From Clostridia bacterium (GTDB taxonomy: Bacteria > Bacillota > Clostridia > Christensenellales > Aristaeellaceae): a stretch of DNA of 44,074 bases. Location of the stretch: the NCBI GenBank assembly GCA_017552535.1, contig JAFZPV010000047.1:1-44074 (forward strand), read 5' to 3'. This document shows positions 27,498-44,074 of the stretch, piece by piece. The position numbers and the translations under genes are program-made. How positions within the stretch are numbered: position 1 is the first letter of the stretch; the number at the start of each line of letters is the position of its first letter. A model generated the notes under the pieces. The model had not been told where the DNA came from, did no database searches, and was given only the letters and a program-made list of their open reading frames with translations.

Positions 27498-28413
27498 GCC
27501 GCTGCTTCAGGTTAAGCATCTTTCGGTGGTTTTCGGCAAGCGCAAAAGCGCCTTCAAAGCCGTAAACGACGTATCCTTTGACGTCTGCCGGGGCGAGACC
27601 TTCGGCCTGGTGGGCGAGAGCGGAAGTGGCAAGACCACCATAGGCCGCGCCATCATCCGCGTGGTGCCCGCCCAGCAGGGCGAGATCATCTTTGACGGCC
27701 AGCGGATCGACGGCCGCATCTCCAAAGAGCTGGACCGGCAGGTGACCAGCCGCATACAGATGATCTTTCAGGACCCCATGGCGTCGCTGAACGAGCGCGC
27801 GAAGGTGGACTATATCGTATCGGAAGGCATATACCGCAAATACCCCAAAGCGCAGCGCGAAAAGCTGGTGGAAAAAGCGCTCAACGACGTGGGCCTTCTG
27901 CCGGAATTCGCCAGCCGCTTCCCCCACGAGTTTTCGGGCGGACAGAGGCAGCGCATCGGCATCGCCCGCGCGCTGATCATGCAGCCGGATTTCATCGTGG
28001 CGGACGAGCCCATCAGCGCCCTGGACGTATCCATCCGGGCCCAGGTGCTTAACCTCCTGAGCGACCTTCAGAAGGCGCGGGGGCTCACGTACCTGTTCAT
28101 CTCCCATGACCTAAGCGTGATGCGCTTCATCTGCGACCGCATCGCCGTGATCCACAAAGGCGTGATCGTGGAGCTGGCCGATACCGAGAAACTATTTAAG
28201 CATCCGCTGCACCCCTATACCCGGGCGCTTCTGTCCGCCGTGCCCCTTCCCGATCCCATCAGCGAAAGGGAGAAGGTGCTCACCGTGTACGATCCGTCCG
28301 TGCACCGTTACGAAACGGATCTGCCCCGCTGGACGGAGCTGGAGCCCGGCCACTTCGTGCACGCCAACGCCGCCGAAGAGGCCGAATACCGCAAGCTTCT
28401 GGAGGACGAATGA
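27490..28413 (+). CDS. Peptide-type ABC transporter ATP-binding protein, OppF/DppF-like
   Basis: A 307-residue second ATPase, forming the expected heterodimer with the preceding one. It has Walker A G-E-S-G-S-G-K-T (42-49), Q-loop F-Q-D-P-M-A-S-L-N near 94-102, signature [10 protein letters not shown] near 152-161, Walker [13 protein letters not shown] near 174-185 and H-loop I-S-H-D-L-S-V-M. The start is GTG at 27490 behind GGAGGTGA, within the end of the previous gene. Its stop overlaps the alanine racemase ATG, so transporter and racemase are translationally coupled. Confidence 0.93.
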
Positions 28414-42302: not shown

Positions 42303-43544
42303 TTATGCCTTTACCTTTTTGAGGTTCACGAAATCGGGCAGGCCGTTCACATGGCCCATCTGGGTCTCGCCCTGGATCAGGGGCAGCGCGTAGGCGATGA
42401 ACTTCTCGTTCACGTTGTCGCCTTCCTCGTTGATCCACTCACGCGGCACCTTCTTCTCAGCGTTGGCCACCACGGTCAGGTCGAACAGCTTGGTGCTGCA
42501 GGTGTACTTGCCGTTCTCGCGGGTACACTCGAAGCCCACCATCTTGTCGGTCACGCCGGCGATGGCGTTATTGGCCGCGGCCTGGCCGGCAGCGAAGGAT
42601 TCCTCGATGTCGGTCTGGCTGGCGCAGTGGGCAGCGCAGCGCTGCAGCAGGCTCAGTTCAATGCCGCGCACCTTGGCGCCGGTGGCGTTTTTGCACTCCT
42701 GAGCCAGGTAGGCCGCCAGGCCGCCCAGCTGCTTGTGGCCGAACGCGTCCACAGCGGCGTCGGACACGGCGTATTCCACGATGAACTTGCCGTCCTTGTC
42801 GTGGATGCCTTCGGAAACGGCCACCAGCACGTTCTTATTTTTGGCATAGATGTCCTTCACCTTCTTAAGGAAGGAGGGCATATCGAAGTCGACCTCCGGC
42901 AGATACACCAGGTCGGGGCCGTTGCCGGTCAGGGAAGCCAGGGCGGCGGCGCCGGTGAGCCAGCCGGCGTGGCGGCCCATGCACTCGATGATGGTGATCA
43001 TGCCCTTGTCGTAAACGTGGCAGTCACGGTACACTTCGGCCACGGAGGTGGCGATGTACTTGGCGGCGGAGGCGAAGCCGGGGCAGTGGTCGGTGCCGGC
43101 CAGGTCGTTGTCGATGGTCTTCGGGATGCCCATGCAGCGCACTTCGTAGCCGTTCTTCAGCATGAACTTGCTGATCTTGTTGCAGGTGTCCATGGAGTCG
43201 TTGCCGCCGTTGTAGAAGAAATAGCGGATGTCGTACTTCCGGAACATCTCCAGGATCTTCTTATAATCGGTATCGTCTTCGTCGGGATCGGCGATCTTGT
43301 AGCGGCAGGAACCCAGCGCGGAGGAGGGCGTGTACTTCATCTTCGCAAGCTCGGCGGGGTCTTCCTTGCCCAGGTCGAACAGATTATCGTTCAGCAGGCC
43401 CACGATGCCGTTCTGCATGCCGTAGACCTTGGTGATAACGTCGCTGTCCAGCGCGGCCTTGATCGCGCCGTACGCGGAAGCGTTGATAACAGAGGACGGT
43501 CCGCCGCTCTGGCCGATGACCGCAGCACCCTTCAATACTGACAT
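42303..43544 (-). CDS. pfp: Pyrophosphate-type 6-phosphofructokinase
   Basis: A 413-residue phosphofructokinase that phosphorylates fructose 6-phosphate, probably with pyrophosphate and reversibly. The phosphoryl-donor motif is G-G-N-D-S (113-117); ATP enzymes have Gly at the fourth position and PPi enzymes Asp. The second determinant reads P-K-T-I-D-N-D (141-147) with Lys rather than Gly, again PPi-type. M-G-R-H-A-G-W-L near 195-202 binds the sugar phosphate. Length fits the roughly 400-residue PPi clade. It is monocistronic, with a consensus promoter and a terminator. A PPi-linked glycolysis suits an anaerobe. Confidence 0.93.
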   Translation of the reverse strand: MSVLKGAAVIGQSGGPSSVINASAYGAIKAALDSDVITKVYGMQNGIVGLLNDNLFDLGKEDPAELAKMKYTPSSALGSCRYKIADPDEDDTDYKKILEMFRKYDIRYFFYNGGNDSMDTCNKISKFMLKNGYEVRCMGIPKTIDNDLAGTDHCPGFASAAKYIATSVAEVYRDCHVYDKGMITIIECMGRHAGWLTGAAALASLTGNGPDLVYLPEVDFDMPSFLKKVKDIYAKNKNVLVAVSEGIHDKDGKFIVEYAVSDAAVDAFGHKQLGGLAAYLAQECKNATGAKVRGIELSLLQRCAAHCASQTDIEESFAAGQAAANNAIAGVTDKMVGFECTRENGKYTCSTKLFDLTVVANAEKKVPREWINEEGDNVNEKFIAYALPLIQGETQMGHVNGLPDFVNLKKVKA

Positions 43545-43607: not shown

Positions 43608-43640
43608 GCGCGCGATTGTTACGCGGCTGTGAGCAAAAGC

Positions 43641-43797
43641 GCACAAGAGTGGCCCAAATCCCAGAGGTGGCTTGGAGGGGCCGCAGCCCCTCCAATTTCA
43701 ATCCGCAGGGCCGGCTTTGCCGGCCCGAGGAGCGGTTTTTGCGCCCGAAAACTCCACAGAGTTTTAGCGAAAACCGAAAACCTGTCACGAAAACCGG
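43641..43797. repeat. Structured repeat element, copy A
   Basis: No convincing gene is present in 43608-44074; this stretch holds two copies of one structured element. Copy A has hairpin 1 TGGAGGGG/CCCCTCCA (43673-43694), hairpin 2 GGGCCGGC-TTT-GCCGGCCC (43708-43726), and a terminal stem-loop: outer 10-bp stem CGGTTTTTGC/GCGAAAACCG (43733-43742 with 43767-43776) and inner 7-bp stem AAAACTC/GAGTTTT with loop CACA (43748-43765). The single-stranded link AATTTCAATCCGC between hairpins 1 and 2 is identical in copy B. The transcribed strand is unknown. It begins 33 bp upstream of the -35 box of pfp. Confidence 0.8.
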
Positions 43798-43860
43798 AAA
43801 TCATCAGACGTTTCGAATCAGAATCACTCAAACGACCCCAAAATCTGCACCGGAGCTGTT

Positions 43861-44067
43861 GCATAAGTAGGGGAAACCCACTCGGTGGTTTGGAGGGGTT
43901 TACCCCTCCAATTTCAATCCGCCGGGCCGGCTATGCCGGCTCGAGGAGCGATTTTTGCGAAGGCGAGCTTGCCCGCCGAGAGCAAAGAATCGCTTCATTG
44001 CAGTTTTTTCGCCCGGAAATGCCCGCAGGCATTTCAGAAAAAACTGAAAACCTGTTGCACAAGCTGG
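43861..44067. repeat. Structured repeat element, copy B (with an extra hairpin)
   Basis: Copy B keeps hairpin 1 TGGAGGGG-TTTA-CCCCTCCA (43891-43910), hairpin 2 GGGCCGGC-TAT-GCCGGCTC (43924-43942) and the terminal stem-loop: outer CAGTTTTTTC/GAAAAAACTG (44001-44010 with 44037-44046), inner GAAATGCC-CGCA-GGCATTTC (44016-44035). Relative to copy A it has about 50 bp more, forming an added bulged stem AGCGATT...AATCGCT (about 43947-43994). The GCCCG internal loop and the trailing AAAACCTGT match copy A. GTTGCA-C-AAG at 44054-44063 resembles the start of a unit (43858-43867), so a third copy may begin at the window edge. Confidence 0.8.
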
Positions 44068-44074
44068 TGAATGA

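Follow-up and report, generated by a model that had tools for sequence, protein, structure and literature searches.

When a folded DNA element occurs twice and the two copies differ at both members of a base pair while staying paired, has selection acted on an RNA, or has something happened to the DNA itself? Paired compensatory changes are commonly read as strong evidence for a structured RNA, and the repeat family described here, found at the right-hand end of a 44,074-nt contig from a Clostridia bacterium, bears on that use of them. This stretch, called the window below, is one whole contig of its genome (G000; 2.39 Mb, 62 contigs, 77% complete). The window ends in two copies of the element, A and B, whose features are given here with a neighbouring gene and one feature from elsewhere in the genome; the hairpins are numbered P1 to P6 in their order in complete copies.

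42303..43544, minus strand: phosphofructokinase gene (PF00365, E 2e-59), start codon toward copy A, outside the element
43622..43851 (about; 5' end estimated), plus strand: copy A, diverged, with no P3 and with a 3' module broken off at the start of copy B (profile matches, sequence)
43672..43695, plus strand: copy A hairpin P1 (sequence, fold)
43708..43726, plus strand: copy A hairpin P2 (sequence, fold)
43733..43776, plus strand: copy A hairpin P4, with outer stem, GCCCG internal loop and inner stem P4b (sequence, fold)
43733..43742 / 43767..43776, plus strand: copy A outer stem CGGTTTTTGC/GCGAAAACCG, one T-G pair (sequence)
43748..43754 / 43759..43765, plus strand: copy A inner stem AAAACTC/GAGTTTT (sequence)
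43852..44074, plus strand: copy B, young, cut by the contig end at 44074 and so lacking some 100 bp of its 3' module
43852..43867, plus strand: copy B 5' end motif GGAGCTGTTGCATAAG (family form GGGGCTGTTGCAnAAG)
43890..43911, plus strand: copy B hairpin P1 (sequence, consensus fold)
43912..43920, plus strand: link TTTCAATCC, conserved and unpaired (consensus of 98 copies)
43924..43942, plus strand: copy B hairpin P2 (sequence, consensus fold)
43947..43994, plus strand: copy B hairpin P3 (sequence, consensus fold)
44001..44046, plus strand: copy B hairpin P4 with inner stem P4b and CGCA tip (sequence, covariation, consensus fold)
44001..44010 / 44037..44046, plus strand: copy B outer stem CAGTTTTTTC/GAAAAAACTG (sequence)
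44016..44023 / 44028..44035, plus strand: copy B inner stem GAAATGCC/GGCATTTC (sequence)
44047..44055, plus strand: copy B tail AAAACCTGT (sequence)
44053..44074, plus strand: start of the 3' module of copy B; P5 and P6 would fall past the contig end (from L024 and other full copies)
L086, 3148..3871 (G000:C6, about 27647..28370): IS200-like element with a Y1 transposase (PF01797) in a copy of the repeat

An earlier note, made from the letters alone, had described a two-copy structured element with compensatory changes in its terminal stem-loop, and a rereading of the sequence bears this out: three successive inner-stem pairs differ between copies A and B and are paired in both, the outer-stem pairs differ as claimed, and the GCCCG internal loop, the link AATTTCAATCC and the tail AAAACCTGT are common to the two. 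The element is real and not a chance likeness, with at least 59 match rows in its own genome, but the unit is longer than described, at about 320 bp. What had been seen as an extra stem of copy B is P3, which copy A lacks; in part of the other copies the P3 position holds a different stem sequence. The possible third unit near 44057 was a misreading of the start of copy B's own 3' module (TGTTGCACAAG...), which is seen in full copies including L024 and which resembles the 5' end of the element (GCTGTTGCATAAG). Copy A gives profile matches at 43648-43743 and 43732-43834 and ends in a tail (ATCATCAGACGTTTCG..CCCCAAAA) similar to the 3' module seen elsewhere in the family; copy B starts within this module, so that B is nested in A or A is truncated. 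The seven best other matches spanning copy B are 92-99% identical to it, and the 5' end motif of copy B is an inverted match to TGCAACAGCCCC, the 3' end of complete copies. No shuffled sequence folds as well as copy A (z -4.1, 200 shuffles) or as the full reference copy L024 (z -7.5 and -8.2 on the two strands, 100 shuffles each).

On the plus strand, a complete element runs from the end motif GGGGCTGTTGCAnAAG through P1, the link TTTCAATCCGCA, P2, P3, P4/P4b and a further link to P5 and P6. P1 has the stem GGAGGGG/CCCCTCC, P3 is a variable hairpin, and P4 carries the asymmetric internal loop GCCCG and the inner stem P4b with its CGCA tip; the link from P4 to P5 holds CGTTTCG, P5 is about 15 bp with a 3-nt loop, and P6 is GGGGCTG..CAGCCCC. 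The ends of complete copies are related as GGGGCTGTTGCA...TGCAACAGCCCC, forming 12-bp inverted ends, and a local CAGCCCC partner follows the end motif GGGGCTGTTGCAnAAG in 13 of 52 cases. Since P6 or the 5' motif is missing from many older copies, the ends listed are candidate ends. Hairpin modules are gained and lost among copies: an optional 83-nt module of three small hairpins sits at one fixed insertion point in the first arm of P4 (L041, L048, L053, L059, L082, L083, L085 and L091), the 3' module stands on its own at L089 and L092, and copy A is without P3. Solo terminator-like hairpins of GGGGCTGTTGCA or GGGGCTGYTGCA type, lacking the rest of the element, also occur in genomes of the genus (L084, L098, L101), and are either remnants or the lineage's ordinary terminators.

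How widely is the element spread? With L024 as query, and 40 of 91 first-look candidates scored, its own genome gave at least 59 match rows, 14 of which are short second matches of palindromic parts; the main rows, at least 45, come to at least 41 places once four split copies are merged. Eighteen of the 45 main rows are at least 94% identical, and 14 touch a contig end. Matches were present in all seven genomes of the genus, with raw rows (which include the palindromes' short second matches) numbering at least 59 in G000, at least 56 in G002 and at least 41 in G006, the latter two being lower bounds likewise drawn from 40 first-look candidates, and 16, 11, 4 and 3 in the others. The prediction of many genomic copies is thereby confirmed. 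A wider set reaching up to order level had matches in 9 of 20 genomes (its own included) and 3 of 14 genera. Further analysis used 98 copies, namely profile matches over at least 225 model positions without L083 and L088 (repeats of L032 and L040); copies A and B are too short and lie outside this set. The 98 were reduced to 94 at less than 95% identity for a tree, and to 92 at a 93% cut-off, among which the median pairwise identity is about 64%. At two loci, L118 (G006) and L092 (G000), the same gene (84% over 341 aa) appears to precede the element with the two orientations opposite, by six-frame matches of which some are possibly antisense; these are possibly independent insertions.

The copies are found in a characteristic place. 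Neighbouring genes of the 98 copies were called approximately, with a codon model trained on the window, whose own copies are not among the 98. A right neighbour was called for 92 copies and is on the opposite strand in 68. The stop codons of 62 of these 68 convergent genes fall between -40 and +50 nt from the element end; 7 of 24 same-strand right neighbours start within that range. Where both neighbours were called (n=81), the arrangements were 31 (-,-), 28 (+,-), 17 (+,+) and 5 (-,+). A stop codon stands within 60 nt of an element end in 76 of 98 copies, and there is a strong preference for positions right behind stop codons. Copy A itself lies upstream of the phosphofructokinase gene, on the promoter side, and its right neighbour falls past the contig end. 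In 86 of 98 copies P5 has a perfect stem of 10 bp or longer; among these 86, the 8 nt after P5 include at least 5 T in 44 when read in the direction of the abutting gene, versus 7 in the opposite direction. The flank outside P6 is T-rich by the same measure in 14 of 42 copies, a moderate share, while to the left of the 5' motif an A-rich flank (at least 5 of 8 nt being A, in 17 of 52) gives part of the copies a terminator-like end on the minus strand. Two copies scanned for signals had three terminator-like sites each, against shuffle means of 0.9 and 1.1 (about 2 sd above), and no promoter-like site.

Relatives that lack the element show what such sites look like otherwise. In G000 it lies a few bases behind alaS (PF01411). 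The 3' end of alaS is readable in five relatives, none of which has a match to the element profile there; inspection by eye shows a hairpin and a T-run at this place in G001, G003 and G006, and a hairpin with no clear T-run in G002 and G005. The phosphofructokinase loci of relatives, with the upstream region readable in four, also gave no profile match. The absence in relatives rests on these two orthologous loci, beyond which gene order differs between species.

Is the pairing of the stems more than a product of shared descent? Against a null of 60 structure-free alignments simulated on the tree of 94 copies, eight column pairs reached E<=0.05; seven of these correspond to P4b and P5 base pairs (97-100% standard pairing), and the eighth is not a pair. 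The significant covariation that the earlier note had predicted was thus found, and pairing is kept beyond relatedness under the simulation model. Changes on single branches of the tree were two-sided in 75 cases and one-sided in 13 for P4b (slid controls 12/137 and 13/139), and 59 and 37 for P5 (slid controls 10/143 and 12/169), counts that depend on the tree, among whose copies recombination is possible. In the outer stem of P4, one-sided changes (47) exceed two-sided ones (17). P4, P4b and P5 together hold 29 G-U, 16 A-C and 23 other cells among 3083 (G-U 0.9%), versus 22 G-U in 290 cells (7.6%) of the RNase P RNA of the genus, a control in which 3 of 6 alignments were counted. Over all helices on the plus strand there are 373 G-U and 168 A-C cells, the G-U being mostly in P1 (186/1359) and P3 (124/1357) and some of them coming from fixed G-U columns or poor alignment; in P2 the order is reversed (A-C 55, G-U 25), as it is in P4b, so the strand signal is inconsistent between helices.

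Several copies suggest how arms may come to match without selection on an RNA. P4 is fully symmetric in three of the 98 copies: in L026 and L114 the 5' side has been rewritten as the complement of the 3' arm, and in L027 the 3' side as the complement of the 5' arm. In each case the rewriting erases the internal loop that most other copies keep, and the loop is still there in L033, to which L026 is 99% identical over ungapped columns. P5 loops are seen inverted over unchanged stems. On the identical stem CGCTCAAAATGAATC (n=16, counted in the 98-copy set, as a wider tally of 104 P5 tips has a few antisense matches), the loops include TTT five times, AAA four times, and GCA and TGC once each. Template switching has been described as a source of paired substitutions with just such footprints, arm homogenisation and loop inversion (PMC8794818). 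The multi-base, two-sided stem changes and loop inversions are alike in both cases; the substitutions described there are in RNA genes, and here they are in a mobile-looking DNA repeat (PMC8794818). One copy, L165, counts against a DNA-level account of the pairing, having lost the internal loop although its P4 is no perfect palindrome. It nonetheless looks as if some matched hairpin arms arose by DNA-level copying of one from the other, and exchange between copies is another way in which whole hairpins could move. Because of the arm rewriting, the P5 loop inversion, the rarity of G-U in P4, P4b and P5, and two-sided changes on single branches, covariation alone is not proof of an RNA here.

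These observations weigh on the idea of a functional structured RNA, be it a 3' UTR element, an sRNA or a riboregulator, that exists in many dispersed copies and is held in its pairing by selection on the RNA. Such an RNA would account for covariation that exceeds the tree-simulated null, for the several unpaired stretches that are highly conserved beside variable stems, and for the CCGCAG tip, which is present in 78 of 98 copies and inverted in none. The overall excess of G-U over A-C on the plus strand and the terminator-like end that an A-rich flank gives to the minus strand also argue for it. We nevertheless consider it rather unlikely, since G-U pairs in P4, P4b and P5 are about as rare as A-C and far rarer than in RNase P RNA, arm rewriting destroys a conserved internal loop, the P5 loop inverts, the two scanned copies have no promoter-like site, and no Rfam family matches.

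If the element is instead moved as DNA, what moves it? One candidate is an IS1182-type transposon that, as reported for IS1272, replaces the stem-loops it targets; a MITE derived from it would explain both the location at terminators and the short inverted repeats. The 12-bp inverted ends, whose sequence presumably resembles that of IS1182 ends, fit with this, as do the terminator-like hairpins seen by eye at the alaS site of relatives. However, of the two domains that we take to mark IS1182-type transposases, PF13751 has no match in G000 and PF05598 none in the seven genomes, and no pair of end motifs framed a transposase at 20 loci scanned within about 3 kb for a second motif (16 sites read). 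IS1272 is described as targeting inverted repeats without duplications (PMC5678879), whereas 6-7 nt direct repeats at two copies here hint at target duplication; on balance an IS1182-type origin seems distinctly improbable. Still less probable is an element of RAYT/REP-like or IS200/IS605-like type, mobilised by a Y1 transposase through its recognition of single-stranded hairpins. The hairpin architecture would suit it, and the one Y1 transposase of G000 does lie inside a copy, but this gene looks like an IS200-like insertion that interrupts the copy, the repeat resuming on its far side. PF01797 was found in two of the seven genomes and in none of the other five, among them G002 and G006, which are 94% complete and have at least 56 and at least 41 match rows. 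That the copies are ordinary terminators of the lineage, alike by convergence, is scarcely credible: solo hairpins of GGGGCTGYTGCA type do exist, but copies at unrelated sites share long stretches, with their unpaired parts, at identities of at least 94%, which contradicts it.

The reading we prefer, to which we give a probability of about 0.62, is that the element is a MITE-like modular hairpin repeat of about 320 bp, putatively non-coding, which has spread through the genus and stands in place of, or next to, intrinsic terminators at gene 3' ends. Near-identical and diverged copies are dispersed over the genome, one is nested in another or follows a truncated one, and relatives lack the element at two orthologous loci. 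It is short and occupies at least 41 places in G000, and complete copies have terminal inverted repeats, which many older copies are without. In a set of 27 copies, the mean direct repeat at the two ends is 1.56, which is not above that of shuffled flanks (1.31, sd 0.25). At two loci the ends are flanked by direct repeats of 7 nt (L090) and 6 nt (L023), possibly a short target-site duplication. An autonomous partner with the same ends was found neither in the 20 scanned loci nor through PF13751, PF05598 or PF01797, G000 being 77% complete.

Under the MITE-like reading, a mobiliser acting on the short inverted ends would have spread the element within the genus. Insertion would either prefer terminators or be tolerated only there, and P5 and P6 would then take over termination for the abutting gene. 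The arms may be kept matched partly by template switching during replication, in which one arm is copied onto the other, and partly by exchange between copies, with selection perhaps keeping certain unpaired motifs such as TTTCAATCCGCA, the CGCA tip and CGTTTCG. A more specific version is tentative and on the doubtful side: a mobile family supplying replacement terminators or 3' UTRs, homing to the intrinsic terminators behind stop codons and substituting its own hairpins, in which arm-copying stems would produce RNA-like covariation without RNA function. The earlier note had left the choice between a structured RNA and a hairpin-substrate mobile element. The mobile half has good support; to argue from compensatory changes to a function as RNA is unsafe, given the arm-copying and loop-inversion events at the DNA level and the lack of a promoter-like site in the two scanned copies. 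The element may still act as RNA, in a terminator or 3' UTR structure.

A repeat with dozens of natural copies, some with whole-arm copying or loop inversion, offers a gauge of the covariation that mutation alone can produce, and this one occupies many gene 3' ends in an uncultured lineage. The view that it belongs to no named family agrees with Rfam, which gave no match in the window at gathering thresholds (the 3' module lies beyond the window) and six weak matches far below the cut-off at a permissive threshold, and with the literature searched, in which no description of such a repeat family was found.

Among known systems, REP units are shorter than the element's 320 bp or so. REP/BIME sequences with RAYT are nevertheless like it in being extragenic hairpin repeats in mosaic arrangement (PMC2817692), with the difference that five of the seven genomes here have no Y1 transposase match. 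The inverted-repeat-replacing transposition of IS1272 (PMC5678879) shares stem-loop targets and terminal inverted repeats with our element, and differs in its transposase, of which no match was found here (PF13751 in G000, PF05598 in seven genomes). Two further likenesses come from Streptococcus pneumoniae (PMC3049150). BOX elements there are built of boxA, boxB and boxC modules, with optional inner modules and reported target duplications. Like the present element they are modular, tightly folded, interspersed, and clustered or nested with other repeats; they differ in host group and layout, and here there is close attachment to stop codons and a hint of duplication in 2 of 27 copies (PMC3049150). 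SPRITE is, like our element, a terminator-like repeat enriched near gene 3' ends, and has been suggested to be co-opted as a terminator, but it consists of one 18-bp duplex with a U-rich tract, in contrast to a chain of several hairpins of about 320 bp (PMC3049150). By analogy, the element may work like the pneumococcal BOX and SPRITE repeats, as a family that host group and layout set apart from both as they are described.
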